In this document: positions 48,044 through 56,342 of the stretch, in pieces
Layout: the number at the start of each line of letters is the position of its first letter
Numbering within the stretch: position 1 is the stretch's first letter
From: Solitalea longa
GTDB taxonomy: Bacteria > Bacteroidota > Bacteroidia > Sphingobacteriales > Sphingobacteriaceae
DNA: 64,000 nucleotides
Direction of reading: 5' to 3'
Assembly (NCBI RefSeq): GCF_002920915.1
Contig: NZ_PQVF01000008.1
Span: 1-64,000 of the forward strand
Notes under the pieces: generated by a model
Databases searched by the model: none
What the model was told of the DNA's origin: nothing
The model's input: only the letters and a program-made list of their open reading frames with translations
Program-made: the position numbers and the translations under genes

Positions 48044-48076
48044 CAAGAATCCCCCGCATTAGCAGGGGATTTCTTG
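48044..48076 (+). terminator. Hairpin downstream of the small membrane gene
   Basis: CAAGAATCCCC (48044-48054) pairs with GGGGATTTCTTG (48065-48076) with one bulged base and a short loop. It has no long T run. The rest of the 47898-48136 gap shows no gene. Confidence 0.5.
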
Positions 48077-48172: not shown

Positions 48173-49711
48173 TTATGCTACTGTAGTAATTGATTTCATG
48201 GCAGTCATGGCTTGTCTTAATACATCACCTACTACCTCAATTTGATGCGAACGGATAGCCTTATTTACAGCAATTAGTTTTTTGTTATCTACGCCACCGT
48301 CTTTACCGTCGTTGTAGTTTTTACCAATGATATCGGTATTCACTGTTTTCATAAAATCAGCTAATAATGGTTTACAAGCATGATCGAACAAGTAACAACC
48401 ATACTCAGCAGTATCAGAAATAACACGGTTCATTTCAAACAGTTTTTTACGAGCAATGGTATTGGCAATAAGTGGTGTTTCGTGTAATGATTCGTAATAA
48501 GCTGATTCAGCAATAATACCAGCTTCAACCATCGTTTCGAAAGCTAATTCAACACCAGCTCTAACCATAGCTACCATTAACAATCCATTATCAAAAAACT
48601 CTTGTTCTGAGATCTTCACATCAGCTGCCGGCGTTTTCTCAAATGCAGTTTCTCCTGTTGCTGCTCTCCAGGTTAACAAGTTAATATCGTTGTTCGCCCA
48701 ATCTTCCATCATGGTTGATGAGAACTCACCGCTCATAATATCATCCTGATGTTTTTGGAACAATGGACGCATAATGCGTTTCAATTCTTCAGAAACCTCA
48801 AAAGCTTTAACTTTTGCTGGATTAGATAATCTGTCCATCATAGCAGTAATACCACCTTGTTTTAAGGCTTCGGTAATTACTTCCCATCCGTATTGGATCA
48901 ATTTAGATGCATACCCTTTATCAACTCCTTTTTCAACCATTTTATCGAAACAAAGAATTGAACCAGTTTGCAATAAACCACAAAGGATCGTTTGTTCACC
49001 CATTAAATCCGATTTAACTTCGGCAACAAATGATGATTTTAACACACCTGCTTTGTGACCTCCGGTACCAACGGCATAAGCTTTAGCTTGCGCCCATCCT
49101 TTACCTTCCGGATCATTTTCTGGGTGAACAGCAATTAAGGTAGGAACACCAAATCCTCTTTTGTATTCTTCCCTAACTTCTGTACCCGGACATTTTGGGG
49201 CCACCATGATTACGGTGATATCTTTACGGATCTTCATGCCTTCTTCAACAATGTTGAATCCGTGAGAGTATGATAAGGTTGCTCCTTTTTTCATTAAAGG
49301 CATTACTGCCGATACTACAGCGGAGTGTTGCTTATCAGGAGTAAGATTAATCACCACGTCGGCAGTAGGGATCAATTGTTCATAAGTACCCACTACAAAA
49401 CCGTTTTCGGTAGCACTTTTCCACGACTGGCGTTTTTCAGCAATTGCTTCTTCACGTAATGCATAAGAAACATCCAAACCTGAATCTCTAAGATTCAAAC
49501 CTTGATTTAATCCCTGAGCACCACAACCCACAACTACTAATTTTTTACCTTTTAAAGCAGTCACCCCATCAGCAAAATGGCTGTTGTCTAAAAATTCGCA
49601 AACACCCAATTGATTAAGTTTTTCTCTTAATGAAAGTGTGTTGAAATAATTTTGGCGGCTAGCCTTAGCAGTTGTTTCTTCTATTGTATCTGCAAAATTC
49701 ATTAAAGCCAT
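48173..49711 (-). CDS. ilvC: Ketol-acid reductoisomerase (class II, NADP)
   Basis: The 512-residue enzyme is the long form with a duplicated knotted domain, as in E. coli, not the roughly 330-residue form. The Rossmann loop is [29 protein letters not shown]. Metal and substrate regions include [41 protein letters not shown], and the C-terminal [18 protein letters not shown]. It converts acetolactate and acetohydroxybutyrate to the dihydroxy acids. It is last of the ilv operon, after ilvN. Start could be ATG 49711 or 49702. Confidence 0.96.
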
Positions 49712-49764: not shown

Positions 49765-50310
49765 CTAGTTTAACACCTGCTCATACTCGGTTAATTCTTC
49801 GGCATGATATAATTCATGTGCCGGAATACGCTGTTTGTGAATGGCTATACGCCCTGAATGGACGAACTCCAACAAACCAAAAGGTTTTAACAGATCATAA
49901 AAACTCATCAGATCTTCTATCGTACCGGTTTTTTCAAGAGCTGTAAACCCTGGTTCCATATACATTACCCTGGCGCCATGTTCATTAGCCAGATTGATAA
50001 TAGGTGTTAATTTAGCAGGATCTTCAATGTTCACTTTGTAGATTGCAACCTCACTAAATATCATATTATCAGCATCGTAAGCATAGGCAATTAACACTTC
50101 AATAACCTTGTTAATTTGTTGCACCAGTTTACGACTCATGTCTTCGGTACATTTAACTACAATGGTAAAACGAGAAATACCCTTTTTCTCTGTCTCAGAA
50201 ACTGTTAAGCTTTCAATATTAATTCGGCGACGGGTAAAGATGATCGTTAACCGGTTCAATAAACCGATATTATTTTCCGTAAAAACCGATATGGTATATA
50301 ACTTTTCCAT
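49765..50310 (-). CDS. ilvN: Acetolactate synthase small (regulatory) subunit
   Basis: The 181-residue protein begins with an ACT domain, YTISVFTENNIGLLNRLTIIFTRRRINIESLTVSETEKKGISRFTIVV, which binds valine in the feedback-inhibited enzyme. A C-terminal domain follows (IINLANEHGARVMYMEPGFTALEKTG). It partners IlvB encoded 67 bp upstream and lies before ilvC. Confidence 0.94.
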   Translation of the reverse strand: MEKLYTISVFTENNIGLLNRLTIIFTRRRINIESLTVSETEKKGISRFTIVVKCTEDMSRKLVQQINKVIEVLIAYAYDADNMIFSEVAIYKVNIEDPAKLTPIINLANEHGARVMYMEPGFTALEKTGTIEDLMSFYDLLKPFGLLEFVHSGRIAIHKQRIPAHELYHAEELTEYEQVLN

Positions 50311-50377: not shown

Positions 50378-52126
50378 TTATTGAAGGCGAACTTCATCGA
50401 CACTTGCACCAGTGGCAACCATTGGGAATACATTGGCTTCTTTTTCAACCACCACTTCTAAAAGGTAAGGAACTTCAGATGCAAGCATTTCTTCAACAGC
50501 GCTATCAAGCTCTTCTCTTTCGGTGATCTTTTTCGCTTTTACACCAAAACCTTCAGAAATTTTGATAAAATCAGGATTTTGCAATTCAACAAATGAATAG
50601 CGGTTATCAAAGAACATCTCCTGCCATTGGCGAACCATACCCAGGAAATTATTATTCAGGATCACAATTTTAACCGGAAGCTTATTTTGAGCAATTGTTC
50701 CCAATTCTTGTATGGTCATTTGAAAACAGCCATCTCCAATTACAGCGATAACTTCACGTTCAGGAGCCGCCACTTTTGCACCAAATGCTGCGGGCAATGC
50801 AAAGCCCATCGTTCCCAAACCTCCTGATGAGATGAAAGAGTTGGTATGCGCAAACTTATAGTAACGTGCAGCCATCATTTGATGCTGACCTACATCCGCT
50901 ACTAATGCTGCTTGTCCCTTGCTTTTTTCTGAGATCATATTGATTACCTCACCCATGCGCATTCCGCCTTGCGTAGGATAAATTTCATTTTGGATGACCT
51001 TTTCTATTTCCTGCTGATAACATTCATTGAATTTAGCATGCCATTGAGAATGATCGTTTTTGCGAACCAACGGAAGTAATACCTGTAAAGCCTCTTTCGC
51101 ATCAGCATTGATCGATACAGCCGTTTTAACATTCTTGTCTATCTCAGCTGGATCAACTTCAATATGAATAACTTTAGCCTGTTTTGCATAACGCTTTAAA
51201 TCACCAGTTACCCTGTCATCGAAACGCATACCAATGGCAATGATTACATCAGCCTCATTAGTTAACAGATTTGGCCCGTAGTTACCATGCATGCCTAACA
51301 TTCCCACATATTGTGGATGAGATGCTGGGAAAGCTGAAAGTCCGTGCAGCGTGCTGGCTACAGGAATTCCTGTTTTTTCTACCAATTCCCGTACTTCATT
51401 TTCGGCTTTAGAAATTAAAATGCCTTGTCCAATAAACAGGAAAGGTTTTTTTGCAGCATTAATTAACTCTGCCGCTTTTTCCACCTGCTCATAGGTATAG
51501 TTTGATTTAGGGCGATAACCACGAACACTGTTACATTTAACATTGATAAATTCGTTGGTCAGTTGTTCAAACTGGGCGTTTTTAGTAACATCGATCAATA
51601 CTGGCCCAGGACGACCGCTTTTAGCAATATAAAATGCCTTTGCAATGATCTCAGGAATCTCGTCTGCCGACGTTACCTGGTAATTCCATTTGGTTATCGG
51701 CATGGTCATACCCATAATATCAGCTTCCTGAAATGCATCAGTTCCTAATAATGCTTTAGCCACTTGACCAACAATGCAAACCATCGGAACGCTGTCCATC
51801 AATGCATCGGCAATAGGCGTGATAAGATTGGTTGCACCAGGTCCTGAAGTAACCAAACACACACCTACTTTACCCGAAATTCGGGCATAACCTTCGGCTG
51901 CATGTCCGGCACCTTGCTCATGGCGCACTAAAATATGGTTTAGTTTATCGCGATAATCATAGAGTGCATCATAGACGGGCATAATAGCTCCACCCGGATA
52001 ACCAAAAATGGTATCCACGCCTTCAGCAACTAAAGCCATCATAAGGGCTTCCGATCCACTGATTTTACGTTGAGCAGCTGTTTTTTGCATTGTCTTTAAT
52101 GTATCGTTTTGAACTGTTGTTCCCAT
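50378..52126 (-). CDS. ilvB: Acetolactate synthase large (catalytic) subunit
   Basis: The start is placed at ATG 52126 (MGTTVQNDTLKTMQKTAAQRK). Earlier in-frame ATGs up to 52303 fall inside ilvD and give unlikely sequence. The ThDP enzyme has FGYPGGAIMPVYDALY, the catalytic glutamate in VRHEQGAGHAAEGYARISG, GPGATNLITPIADA, and the ThDP-magnesium motif IGDGCFQMTIQELGTIAQNKLPVKIVILNN. It condenses pyruvate with pyruvate or 2-oxobutyrate, opening the valine and isoleucine pathways. It starts 49 bp after the ilvD stop. Confidence 0.95.
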   Translation of the reverse strand: MGTTVQNDTLKTMQKTAAQRKISGSEALMMALVAEGVDTIFGYPGGAIMPVYDALYDYRDKLNHILVRHEQGAGHAAEGYARISGKVGVCLVTSGPGATNLITPIADALMDSVPMVCIVGQVAKALLGTDAFQEADIMGMTMPITKWNYQVTSADEIPEIIAKAFYIAKSGRPGPVLIDVTKNAQFEQLTNEFINVKCNSVRGYRPKSNYTYEQVEKAAELINAAKKPFLFIGQGILISKAENEVRELVEKTGIPVASTLHGLSAFPASHPQYVGMLGMHGNYGPNLLTNEADVIIAIGMRFDDRVTGDLKRYAKQAKVIHIEVDPAEIDKNVKTAVSINADAKEALQVLLPLVRKNDHSQWHAKFNECYQQEIEKVIQNEIYPTQGGMRMGEVINMISEKSKGQAALVADVGQHQMMAARYYKFAHTNSFISSGGLGTMGFALPAAFGAKVAAPEREVIAVIGDGCFQMTIQELGTIAQNKLPVKIVILNNNFLGMVRQWQEMFFDNRYSFVELQNPDFIKISEGFGVKAKKITEREELDSAVEEMLASEVPYLLEVVVEKEANVFPMVATGASVDEVRLQ

Positions 52127-52175
52127 AGTTTTATTGTTGAGCATTGCCCCGACTAACGGAGCAATTGTTTTAATA

Positions 52176-53855
52176 TTATAATTCGTCTGTAACGCAACCT
52201 TCAGATGCTGAAGAAACGTTTTTGATATATTTTGCCAAAGTACCTTTGGTGGCTCTCCAAGCCGGCTGTTGCCAAGCGGCTCTTCTGCTTGCGATCTCTT
52301 CATCGCTTAACTCTGCATTTAAGACTCGTCTTTCGGCATCAATAGTAATGATATCACCATCTTTTAACAGTCCGATCAAACCACCGTTTTGCGCTTCAGG
52401 AGTAATGTGGCCAACTACGAAACCATGTGTTCCACCTGAGAAACGGCCATCAGTAATTAAAGCTACACTTTTACCTAAGCCTGCTCCCATAATTAATGAA
52501 GTTGGCTTCAGCATTTCAGGCATTCCCGGTGCTCCTTTAGGACCCTGATAGCGGATTACCACTACGTCGCCTTTTTGGATCTTACCTGAAAGAACCGAAT
52601 CATTTAGATCAAACTCAGTATTGAATACCTTAGCAGGTCCGCTGAACTTTAAACCTTCCTTACCTGTAATTTTAGCAACCGAACCTTCTGCCGCCAAGTT
52701 TCCGTATAAAATCTGCAAATGCCCTGTTGCTTTGATCGGGCTTGTAACCGGAACGATAATTTGCTGATCGGCCGCCAATTCGGGCACATCTGCAAGATTT
52801 TCTGCAACCGTTTTTCCTGTTACTGTCAAACAATCTCCGTGTAAGAAACCTTCATTCAGCAAATATTTCATTACTGCCGGAATACCACCTACCTGATGAA
52901 GGTCTTTCATCAAATATTTACCGCTAGGTTTTAGGTCAGCAATAAATGGAGTTCTGTCAGAAATACGTTGGAAATCATCGATCGTCAGTTTAACATCAAC
53001 CGCCTTTGCAATGGCAATTAAATGCAATACCGCGTTTGTTGACCCTCCTAAAGCCATTATGATCGTCATTGCATTTTCAAACGCCTTTTCGGTCATAATA
53101 TCCTTTGGAAGAATGTTCTTCTCCAGTAAAGTACGAATTGCTTTACCTACAGCTTTACATTCATCCTGCTTTACCTTGCTTACTGCCGGGTTTGATGAAC
53201 TGTACGGCAAACTCATTCCTAATGCTTCAATTGCCGAAGACATGGTATTAGCCGTGTACATACCCCCACAGGCACCTGAGCCAGGGCATGCATGTTTTAC
53301 AACTTCTTTGAATTCTTCCGGAGTTATATCTCCTGCAATTTTTTGCCCTAATGCTTCAAAAGCCGAAATGATATCAAGGTCTTTCCCATTATGATGACCT
53401 GCATCAATTGTACCTCCATAAACCATTATAGAAGGACGATTTAAACGGCCCATAGCCATTAAAGCACCCGGCATATTTTTATCGCAACCCATTACGGTAA
53501 TTACAGCATCATACCATTGTGCCGACACCACGGTTTCAATACTGTCGGCAATAATATCACGCGACTGTAATGAAAAGCGCATGCCCTCCGTACCGTTTGA
53601 CATACCATCGCTTACACCAATAGTATTAAATATAAGCCCCACCAACTCATTATCCTTCACACCAGCTTTAATTGCTTTTGCTAAATCATTCAGATGCATG
53701 TTACAAGTATTTCCCTCATAACCTGCACTGGCAATGCCTACCTGAGCTTTATTCATGTCTTCTTCAGTAAGACCAATACCATGTAACATGGCCTGCGCAC
53801 CAGGTAATGTAGTATCCTGCGTTAACGTTGCACTATATCTATTTAGTTTGTTCAT
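52176..53855 (-). CDS. ilvD: Dihydroxy-acid dehydratase
   Basis: The 559-residue iron-sulfur enzyme has [20 protein letters not shown], the cluster cysteines in [15 protein letters not shown] and [18 protein letters not shown], and [17 protein letters not shown]. The C-terminal motif is [22 protein letters not shown]. It makes the 2-keto acids of valine and isoleucine. It lies between ilvE and ilvB, with a 77-bp gap to ilvE. Confidence 0.97.
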
Positions 53856-53932: not shown

Positions 53933-54820
53933 TTATATGATATAACCTTTGTATTCTTTTAAAGTAACTCGTTTCCTGTATTTTACGCTTATTTCGAAAC
54001 CAATTGTGTCTTCCCATTTTTTACGAAAGCTTTTGCCGTCAATACTTTCTATTCCGGCAACCTCAGCAGCAGTTCCTGTAGAAAAAGCACCGTCGATATC
54101 AATCAAGTCTTCAGGCTTTATTTTCTTTTCAATCACTTCATAACCCAAATCACTGGCAATGTCAATTACGGTTGATCTGGTGATGCCTGGAAAAATACTA
54201 CCCAACTCTGGTGTGTAAATAGTATTGTCTTTTTCATAGAAAAAGTTAGATGCTGCACATTGAGCAATAAAACCATGCTCATCTAAGAGCAATGCCTCAT
54301 CAAAACCTTTCTGTTTAGCTTCACGTGTGGCCATCACTGCATTAACATACTGCCCATTAACTTTAGAGTCGACATGAAATGCAGAAGGACTAATTCGTTT
54401 ATAAGAGGAGGTCATTAGACGGGTTTGCTGATCGCCATAATACACTGCCCAACTGAAGGCACCAATAAAAATGTTATGGCTGTTACCTGGCGTTAACGAT
54501 AAATTATCACCGGCAAAAACCAATGGACGGATATAAGCATTTTTCAAATGATTGCGACGAATTAACTCATATGATATATCCGTCAACTCCTCAACTGTAT
54601 AATTTAGGGTGAGAAAAAGTGTACTGCATGAATAATGTAAGCGCTTAAAGTGCTCAATAGGCTTAAAAATGCGAGTACCGCTATCTGTATCATAGGCCCT
54701 TATACCTTCAAAGGCACTGTTGCCATAGTGAAACGATTGACTGTAGGGACTTAATTTAACATCCTTGATGTTTAAATACTGGCCATTGTAAAATACAATT
54801 GAGTTTTCATTAAAATGCAT
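53933..54820 (-). CDS. ilvE: Branched-chain amino-acid aminotransferase (class IV)
   Basis: The 295-residue PLP enzyme has YSQSFHYGNSAFEGIRAYDTDSGTRIF, the catalytic lysine in HVDSKVNGQYVNAVMATREAKQKGFDEALLLD, and FYEKDNTIYTPELGSIFPGITRSTVI. It carries out the last step of isoleucine, valine and leucine synthesis. It is second gene of the operon, 59 bp after ilvA. Confidence 0.93.
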   Translation of the reverse strand: MHFNENSIVFYNGQYLNIKDVKLSPYSQSFHYGNSAFEGIRAYDTDSGTRIFKPIEHFKRLHYSCSTLFLTLNYTVEELTDISYELIRRNHLKNAYIRPLVFAGDNLSLTPGNSHNIFIGAFSWAVYYGDQQTRLMTSSYKRISPSAFHVDSKVNGQYVNAVMATREAKQKGFDEALLLDEHGFIAQCAASNFFYEKDNTIYTPELGSIFPGITRSTVIDIASDLGYEVIEKKIKPEDLIDIDGAFSTGTAAEVAGIESIDGKSFRKKWEDTIGFEISVKYRKRVTLKEYKGYII

Positions 54821-54879: not shown

Positions 54880-56133
54880 TTAAACCAGGTATTTCCTCAA
54901 CATTTCGTGATCGTTCACGTTGATATAATTGATGTGGTTTTGTTTTAAACGGAAGAGCAAAGGTTCGAGATCGGTTTTAACAGCAAGTTCAATACCTACC
55001 AGCGCTGGCCCAAACTCTTTATTGGTCTTTTTCAGATATTGAAAATGCACAATGTCATCGTTGGGACCCAAAGCCTCGTTCAAAAAATTACGAAGCTCAC
55101 CCGGTTTTTGGGCAAATTCAACTATAAAGTAGTGTTTTAAACCTTCAAAAATCAGGCTTCGTTCAATAACTTCAGGGTAACGAGCTATATCATTATTGCC
55201 ACCGCTGATCACACAAACCACATTTTTGCCCTGCAATTGATCGGCAATTTTATCAAGGGCCGCTACTGCCATTGCACCAGCAGGCTCAGCTATGATTCCT
55301 TCATTTTGATATAATTCGATCATGGTTGTACAAACCTTACCCTCCTCGATAGTAAAAATTTGTTCTATATGCTCGTTAATGATTTGAAAGGTCAGTTCAC
55401 CGATTTGCTTCACTGACGCCCCATCAATAAAGGTATCTATAGATTCAAGCTTCAATGGAGCCCCATTCTTTCGAGCCTCCACCATTTTGGGAGCACCTGC
55501 CGGGTCAACACCAATCACTGTTACCTCTGGTTTATTTTCCTTGAAATATAAGGCAGCTCCTGAAGCCAATCCACCACCACCAATTGGAACAACCAGCATA
55601 TCGAGATCGTTCAGGTCTTCATCAATTTCCCTGGAAACAGTAGCCTGTCCCCAGATGGTATTCCAATCGTCGAAAGGATGAATAAAAGAAAGGTCATTTT
55701 GTTCTGTAAACTTTTTAGCCGCTTCATAGGCCTCATCGTAAGTGGTCCCTGTTAAAATAACATTCGCCCATTCGCCACCAAAACTTCTAACCTTTTGTAT
55801 TTTCTGACGAGGAGTAACCTGCGGCATAAAAATATGCGACTTGATTTTCAATTTATTACTACTAAAAGCAACGCCTTGAGCGTGATTTCCGGCACTAGCG
55901 CATACAACTCCTCTTTCGCGTAATTCGGGATCAAGATTTATAATGTTATTATAAGCTCCTCTGATTTTATAAGAGCGAACCGGCTGCATATCCTCACGTT
56001 TGAAATACAACTTGCAGTTGTATTTCTCGGATAGTCGGGCAATGTATTGCAGGGGCGTCCGATAGGCTACACCATCAAGTTTTTCGGCAGCCTGCACTAC
56101 CTGCTCTGTTAAGTTAGAGGTTGTTGTTTGCAT
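54880..56133 (-). CDS. ilvA: Threonine dehydratase (biosynthetic)
   Basis: The 417-residue PLP enzyme has the lysine motif in PVRSYKIRGAYNNI and the glycine loop in LVVPIGGGGLASGAALYF. The C-terminal regulatory domain begins near GLKHYFIVEFAQKPGELRNFLNEALG and has one ACT-like repeat. That length and domain fit the feedback-controlled biosynthetic form. It converts threonine to 2-oxobutyrate, the committed step to isoleucine. It is the first structural gene, directly after the attenuator, so its product level sets isoleucine flow. Confidence 0.93.
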   Translation of the reverse strand: MQTTTSNLTEQVVQAAEKLDGVAYRTPLQYIARLSEKYNCKLYFKREDMQPVRSYKIRGAYNNIINLDPELRERGVVCASAGNHAQGVAFSSNKLKIKSHIFMPQVTPRQKIQKVRSFGGEWANVILTGTTYDEAYEAAKKFTEQNDLSFIHPFDDWNTIWGQATVSREIDEDLNDLDMLVVPIGGGGLASGAALYFKENKPEVTVIGVDPAGAPKMVEARKNGAPLKLESIDTFIDGASVKQIGELTFQIINEHIEQIFTIEEGKVCTTMIELYQNEGIIAEPAGAMAVAALDKIADQLQGKNVVCVISGGNNDIARYPEVIERSLIFEGLKHYFIVEFAQKPGELRNFLNEALGPNDDIVHFQYLKKTNKEFGPALVGIELAVKTDLEPLLFRLKQNHINYINVNDHEMLRKYLV

Positions 56134-56147
56134 AGTTGTGATAAAGT

Positions 56148-56225
56148 AAAAGAGCCGCTCCCTTTGGGGGAAGCGGCTCTTTTTATGTTTGTGTTTGCTT
56201 TACATATTTAAGTGCACCACTTCCC
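56148..56225 (-). promoter_or_regulatory. ilv operon attenuator: antiterminator and terminator
   Basis: The terminator stem is AGCGGCTCTTTT (56172-56183 on the plus strand) paired with AAAAGAGCCGCT (56148-56159), the loop side holding CCC/GGGG. It ends 14 bp before the ilvA ATG. Just after the leader peptide stop, GGGAAGTGG (56217-56225, minus sense) can pair over nine bases, one a G-U, with CCGCTTCCC in the upstream terminator arm (56168-56176). The two pairings are mutually exclusive, which is the antiterminator/terminator switch. A ribosome stalled on Ile codons would leave the antiterminator free. No clear region 1 partner was found. Confidence 0.8.
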
Positions 56226-56227
56226 TG

Positions 56228-56290
56228 TCATGTGTGAAGAATCACCACGATAATAATAATGACAGTAATAATAGTGCTCAGATTTTTCAT
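56228..56290 (-). CDS. ilvL: Ile/Val-rich leader peptide of the ilv operon
   Basis: Minus-strand ATG at 56290 opens 20 codons ending in TGA (56228-56230): MKNLSTIITVIIIIVVILHT. Seven residues are isoleucine (six ATT, one ATC), three valine and two leucine, with four Ile codons in a row. It is too short to be found by size, but it sits between a likely promoter and a terminator hairpin, ahead of ilvA. This is the classic leader-peptide arrangement for amino-acid sensing by ribosome stalling. The name ilvL is used by analogy. Confidence 0.85.
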   Translation of the reverse strand: MKNLSTIITVIIIIVVILHT

Positions 56291-56335
56291 TTGTTTAACT
56301 CTTAAGGCGAATATATTATGATATTAATAAAGAAG

Positions 56336-56342
56336 CAAAATA
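56336..56342 (-). promoter_or_regulatory. Candidate promoter for the ilv leader
   Basis: TATTTTG on the minus strand resembles a -7 TAnnTTTG element short of one base, about 45 bases upstream of the leader ATG and 41 bp after the lptD stop. No -33 TTTG is seen. Confidence 0.35.

Follow-up and report, generated by a model that had tools for sequence, protein, structure and literature searches.

In Escherichia coli the ilvGMEDA and ilvBN operons are controlled by the leader-peptide attenuators ilvL and ivbL respectively. The leader of the Solitalea ilvAEDBNC operon is like these in having a short ORF rich in Ile, Val and Leu codons, alternative terminator and antiterminator structures, and a branched-chain amino acid operon downstream. 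It is unlike them in belonging to another phylum, in its sequence, in the lack of a Shine-Dalgarno sequence and in preceding an operon led by ilvA. It also resembles the E. coli thr leader (RF00506), a ribosome-mediated attenuator. Thr_leader was the top sub-threshold match when the leader region was compared with Rfam at a permissive threshold, but at 25.6 bits (gathering score 55) the Solitalea leader is below the cut-off and is not a member of that family, and its codons and operon are different. A comparative study by Vitreschak et al. in 2004 reportedly lists cases in Bacteroidetes.

A transcriptome of Flavobacterium gave strong clues that amino-acid operons are preceded by leader peptide attenuators (PMC9723704), and short ORFs reminiscent of leader peptides are mentioned in B. 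thetaiotaomicron (PMC7366714). The F. psychrophilum candidates share with the Solitalea leader the phylum, the location at amino-acid biosynthesis operons and the proposal of leader peptide attenuation. They differ in that the proposal, in the passages concerned, takes up a single sentence, with no ilv case, pairing scheme or account of its spread (PMC9723704). The earlier note had presented the mechanism as known in proteobacteria and seen here in a Bacteroidota-type genome. This overstated its novelty, as attenuation before amino-acid operons had been suggested earlier in the phylum (PMC9723704). The ilvB candidates of Actinobacteria similarly combine leader peptides rich in ILV with terminators ahead of ilv operons (PMC1262725). 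Their exact mode is described in the relevant passages as unclear, and codon substitutions in S. coelicolor were without effect (PMC1262725); the Solitalea leader, unlike these, allows a full antiterminator and protector.

The mechanism is a textbook one, and the Solitalea ilv leader adds a case to the attenuators already suggested for Bacteroidota. No description of it was found in literature searches, as far as the accessible portions of the sources extend. It has the form of a complete, well-formed attenuator, in a phylum where the relevant passages mention the mechanism only briefly (PMC9723704, PMC7366714).

The operon and its leader ORF

We consider it highly probable that the leader is a classical ribosome-mediated transcription attenuator for ilvAEDBNC. 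Sequence and folding support the ORF, three competing pairings, the dependence of the antiterminator on the position of the ribosome, and recurrence in relatives. The window, i.e. the whole 64-kb stretch of DNA that was analysed (64,000 nt), contains the following operon.

54880..56133, minus strand: ilvA, threonine ammonia-lyase, heading the operon (above cut-off for NF006390 and TIGR02079)
53933..54820, minus strand: ilvE, branched-chain aminotransferase (TIGR01122 over cut-off; NF005146 just under)
52176..53855, minus strand: ilvD, dihydroxy-acid dehydratase (NCBIfam)
50378..52303, minus strand: ilvB, acetolactate synthase large subunit (NCBIfam)
49765..50310, minus strand: ilvN, acetolactate synthase small subunit (above cut-off for TIGR00119, slightly below for NF008864)
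48173..49711, minus strand: ilvC, ketol-acid reductoisomerase (NCBIfam)
48048..48071, minus strand: terminator-like hairpin past ilvC, likely the end of the operon (terminator scan)

The ORF listed for ilvB overlaps ilvD and its match to TIGR00118 begins only at residue 82, so the true start of ilvB is probably further in.

Upstream of ilvA lies a short ORF on the same strand.

56228..56290, minus strand: leader peptide ORF, product MKNLSTIITVIIIIVVILHT (ORF list, shuffle test, conservation in four Solitalea)
56272-56237, minus strand: Ile/Val/Leu control codons, within codons 7-18 of the leader ORF

Its 20 codons run from the start at 56290 as ATG AAA AAT CTG AGC ACT ATT ATT ACT GTC ATT (codons 1-11) and continue as ATT ATT ATC GTG GTG ATT CTT CAC ACA TGA (codon 12 to the stop). 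Seven are Ile, three Val and two Leu, i.e. 12 of 20, and codons 11-14 are all Ile. When the region was dinucleotide-shuffled 5000 times, 5 of the shuffled sequences contained an ATG ORF with 12 or more codons and an ILV fraction of 0.6 or higher. Codons for the end products of the pathway are clustered in this short ORF in the manner of an attenuator. No Shine-Dalgarno-like sequence was found upstream of the leader ORF; such absence is normal in Bacteroidota. A search of plasmids using the leader as query gave zero matches.

The earlier note had taken the operon to be ilvA, ilvE, ilvD, ilvB, ilvN and ilvC, preceded by a 20-codon ORF with 12 Ile, Val or Leu codons and four consecutive Ile codons, and by a terminator ending 14 nt before ilvA. 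The NCBIfam profiles bear out the gene order, the codon read-out agrees with the composition, and the ORF precedes a hairpin that extends to 56148, with ilvA beginning at 56133.

Competing pairings and the position of the ribosome

The leader RNA can form three competing helices, which are built from these elements.

56259..56277, minus strand: segment 1, 5′ strand of the protector (1:2), within the leader ORF (folding, shuffles, pairing in four species)
56214..56231, minus strand: segment 2 as 3′ strand of the protector, across the stop codon (folding, ribosome walk)
56216..56225, minus strand: segment 2 as 5′ strand of the antiterminator, GGGAAGUGGU (folding, shuffles, 92.5% of cells paired)
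56168..56177, minus strand: segment 3, 3′ strand of the antiterminator, in the terminator 5′ arm and loop edge (folding, species pairing)
56148..56183, minus strand: intrinsic terminator hairpin (segments 3:4) of 15 pairs, with a UUUU end (folding; 4/4 Solitalea)

The leader stop codon is followed by CA and then by GGGAAGTGG, which is complementary to CCGCTTCCC in the 5′ arm of the terminator. This pairing, two bases past the stop, had been pointed out in the earlier note and is present in the sequence, although the literal GGGAAGTGG occurs only in the window's species, the other three Solitalea having GGGAAGTAG. The antiterminator lies close to the stop codon of the ORF, using the terminator 5′ arm, and comprises 10 bp (56225-56216 with 56177-56168); a duplex as good was found in none of 2000 shuffles of the window sequence. 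The terminator follows the ORF and precedes the first structural gene, with 14 nt separating its stem-loop (56183-56148) from the start of ilvA (56133). Its U tract is short, UUUU being followed by ACUUU.

Both structures of the scheme put forward in the earlier note, antiterminator and terminator, are present, but the scheme overlooked the protector pairing inside the ORF. Since this segment of the ORF can pair with the antiterminator strand, the set of 1:2, 2:3 and 3:4 pairings is complete. The protector was matched in 3 of 2000 shuffles of the window sequence, and in 0 to 29 of 2000 in five other leaders.

The leader from 56320 to 56135 folds 5.2 sd below its shuffles, none of 200 being as stable, and its minimum free energy structure contains the protector and the terminator. 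The antiterminator forms in the fragment 56262-56160, from which the codons further upstream and most of the 3′ arm of the terminator are absent. When the ribosome-free transcript is cut before the 3′ arm of the terminator the protector forms in 5/5 relatives. The window's transcript cut in the same way adopts the antiterminator rather than the protector, which is disfavoured there, so that the default in an untranslated leader is not clear-cut in this case. In the window it is only the full-length fold that points to an off state without translation.

The effect of a ribosome was modelled by moving its A site along the leader ORF of the window. With the A site at codons 1-18 the energy of the antiterminator window is between -28.3 and -19.1 kcal/mol, and at codons 7-18 it is -19.1 kcal/mol or lower. 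It then falls away to -15.6 at codon 19, -7.8 at codon 20 and -4.0 kcal/mol at the stop codon. In this energy model a ribosome at the control codons frees the antiterminator, and one at the stop blocks it. In the two leaders of the sister genus g7 discussed below, 8 antiterminator pairs are left with the A site at the stop (-5.3 and -5.8 kcal/mol).

We infer four further elements, i.e. where transcription starts, that the ORF is translated, that its ribosome is coupled to the polymerase and that the system responds to amino acids, and with these the leader would operate as follows. Transcription would begin a few nt upstream of the leader ORF, with the ribosome trailing the polymerase. Where charged Ile, Val and Leu tRNA is ample the ribosome would proceed to the stop codon and cover segment 2, whereupon segments 3 and 4 would pair, the terminator would form and transcription would end before ilvA. 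Shortage of Ile (or of Val or Leu) would stall the ribosome in codons 7-18, in or just past segment 1; segment 2 would be left free, the 2:3 antiterminator would form and the operon would be read. If the leader were not translated, the 1:2 pairing should allow the terminator to form. The operon is very probably read only when Ile or Val run short, by means of a leader switch as in E. coli.

Conservation in Solitalea and in a sister genus

If the leader is an attenuator, the earlier note argued, relatives should keep a short Ile/Val-rich ORF upstream of ilvA together with a covarying antiterminator. The ORF is indeed kept, in 4/4 Solitalea and in 2/2 g7 genomes; within the genus Solitalea no covariation was seen. 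All four Solitalea genomes examined have a leader of 20-codon layout. Among them 59 of 63 columns are invariant in the leader ORF and 27 of 33 in the terminator, against 32 of 55 in the 5′ flank and 4 of 14 in the gap between terminator and ilvA. All 15 pairs of the protector and all 15 of the terminator form in 4/4 species. Antiterminator pairs are formed in 92.5% of cells, the pair 56218:56175 being broken in three of the four species, and the antiterminator of G046 does not exceed chance (248/2000 shuffles). No double-sided (compensatory) changes were seen among the four Solitalea in the pairs of protector, terminator or antiterminator. From these alignments the genus supports conservation, not covariation.

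We note that the spacer between the antiterminator strand and the terminator (56212-56181) is invariant at 28 of 32 columns in the four Solitalea. It is mostly single-stranded in the folds except for a weak hairpin of 4-5 bp, and the simple model leaves its conservation unexplained.

Both of the g7 genomes examined have a 20-codon leader before ilvA of largely different sequence (MLKTQQIIRFIVIILVVVIT and MLRTQQIIRAIVIILVVVIT). These leaders form antiterminators of their own (matched in 11/2000 and 44/2000 shuffles) and their own protectors (29/2000 and 5/2000). The alternative helices of the two lineages are made from differing but matching sequences, and as judged from these comparisons the covariation part of the support for the antiterminator comes from relatives beyond the genus Solitalea.

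These data bear on the possibility that the hairpin is the terminator of the upstream gene, the short ORF being fortuitous and ilvA having a promoter of its own. A minus-strand ORF (59007-56383) is indeed co-directional with the leader, its end being 92 nt upstream of the leader ATG, and the hairpin could also stop transcripts of that gene. Yet the ORF, protector and terminator are conserved where the flanks are not, and g7 has the matching layout before ilvA in a different sequence. The gap between terminator and ilvA is only 14 nt, and no sigma-70-like site was found in it (the scan does not cover Bacteroidota promoters). We therefore regard this explanation as very unlikely, and the attenuator as the preferred reading.

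A candidate for the promoter of the whole unit lies upstream of the leader.

56308..56339, minus strand: candidate promoter TTTG-N20-TATATTCG, of the -33/-7 type (layout common to six genomes)

We take the TTTG to be the -33 element. The pattern TTTG-N20-TAnnTT[TCA]G is found upstream of the leader in 4/4 Solitalea and 2/2 g7 genomes. It ends 17 nt upstream of the leader ATG in the window, 16-17 nt in Solitalea as a whole and 7 nt in g7. Taken by itself, the pattern is no rarer in the window than expected by chance (6 occurrences against 4.9). The -7 box TAnnTTTG of Flavobacterium is placed at -12 to -5 in the relevant passage of PMC9723704. With that spacing the predicted 5′ UTR is ~12-13 nt in Solitalea and ~3 nt in g7. 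The g7 promoter (L086, L087), predicted 7 nt from the leader ATG, would give a nearly leaderless leader mRNA.

Leaders across the phylum and at other operons

An ILV-rich leader with a terminator precedes ilvD in 12 of 89 upstream regions from the family (1/267 shuffles), and in 20 of 83 from the phylum outside the family (1/249 shuffles), although two of the 20 (L316 and L342) appear by eye to be chance-like. Most ilvD regions fail the leader filter (77/89 and 63/83). The family survey covered 89 of 109 places and the phylum survey 83 of 102, leaving out 7 from the window's own family and 12 of low score; each upstream span was 400-420 nt (shorter for L148). The loose filter took any start codon and an ORF with ILV of at least 0.25, plus a terminator; the strict filter took an ATG start and ILV of at least 0.32. 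Under the strict filter 9/89 family and 18/83 phylum regions passed, the 18 including the doubtful L316 and L342, compared with 0/37 control upstream regions. The loose filter passed 5 of the 37 controls (his, trp/pab, hom and leuA), four at trpE with a terminator present and one at another chorismate-binding gene; a terminator was present in 10/37 control regions. At ilvA, where the survey took the best 30 loci among 149 genomes with a match, the loose filter passed 6/30. One of these rows (L103) looks like chance, L086 was caught via a shortened frame and L087 was missed.

In 28 leaders the best match to the terminator arm was sought between position -36, counted from the end of the stop codon, and the arm itself. 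The match lies at -27 to +7 on this scale, and wholly within the last codons of the ORF in 26/28. It exceeds the shuffle mean in 28/28 leaders, with p ≤ 0.05 in 17/28, many of the leaders being related and hence not independent. In those 26, much of the arm-matching stretch would be hidden under a ribosome that has reached the stop. This set omits L316 and L342, the near-duplicates L318 and L325, and a family match with a TTG start (L169), and adds L191, found by eye. For L132 and L134 the start codon used differs from that of the filter, and the terminator arms for the shuffle and arm-match tests were picked by eye.

In family genomes that fail the leader filter (loci L118, L120, L123, L124, L127, L133 and L136) a recurrent dyad motif of the type TACCGAATACYGTTTT..TTTGGTATA occurs upstream of ilvD, which is possibly a binding site for a regulator. 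Four other genomes of the family (L090, L091, L106 and L108) have a Flavo-1 RNA (RF01705) immediately upstream of ilvA.

Other operons in the window's genome have leaders of corresponding composition: a His-rich ORF MITKQHIALHHHTHLHHGHHHHCA before hisG (L204), a Trp-rich ORF MNNKNTNIFAWWRCNN with a terminator before trpE (L221), and a Thr/Ile-rich ORF MKIAQSTINTTVITAPVVICAISIITTTIITPWGV before thrA (L359/L358). Counterparts occur in some relatives. Inspection of the his and thr leaders in this genome revealed no clear U-tract terminator, and their mechanism is therefore less certain. The leuA upstream regions have no clear leader. There is no Thr-rich leader before thrA in the g7 genomes, and the terminator-like hairpin upstream of their hom genes belongs to a SAM riboswitch (RF00162), found in both (L238:917-1021 and L240:915-1019).

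The match of codons to pathway across the his, trp and thr leaders is, at the level of sequence, independent support for the ilv attenuator. It also bears on whether the ORF might encode a small hydrophobic membrane peptide (e.g. a type I toxin) that has a separate terminator and no part in the regulation of ilvA, as its strongly hydrophobic product and conservation in the genus would allow. The ILV-rich ORFs before ilv genes in other genomes differ from it in sequence, and His-, Trp- and Thr-rich ORFs precede his, trp and thr genes; codon content therefore tracks the pathway and not one family of peptides. We regard such a peptide as even less likely than the upstream-gene terminator. A translation-independent riboswitch sensing tRNA or a metabolite (a T-box or similar) would account for a structured 5′ region with a terminator and an alternative fold, and the SAM riboswitch of the g7 genomes indicates that the family has such control, but we find this equally implausible. 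No match to the leader region attains the gathering score of its Rfam family, the alternative helices are formed within and next to an ORF whose codons fit the pathway, and in relatives the pairing remains near the stop codon. At the gathering score the other leaders and loci gave no leader family, the matches being to tRNAs and Flavo-1.

The reading of ribosome-mediated attenuation given in the earlier note is upheld by the ORF, the terminator, the ribosome-dependent antiterminator and their recurrence with different sequence. Part of the phylum has similar leaders at ilvA or ilvD, and the window's genome itself has them at his, trp and thr genes. It is possible, though we suggest it tentatively, that Bacteroidota have widespread translation-coupled attenuators like those of E. 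coli (ilv, thr, his and trp) on leader mRNAs without Shine-Dalgarno sequences, which in one genus are almost leaderless (predicted 5′ UTR ~3 nt). If so, the leading ribosome would begin translation very early and stay close behind RNA polymerase, and transcription-translation coupling would become directly testable in a phylum with its own rules of initiation. Because attenuation needs ribosome and polymerase to be in step, such leaders would be natural reporters of coupling in bacteria whose initiation does not depend on Shine-Dalgarno sequences.

Finally, in the genome G007 a chorismate-binding frame (C1:1529863-1530599) is split and has two internal stops, and may be a decaying gene.
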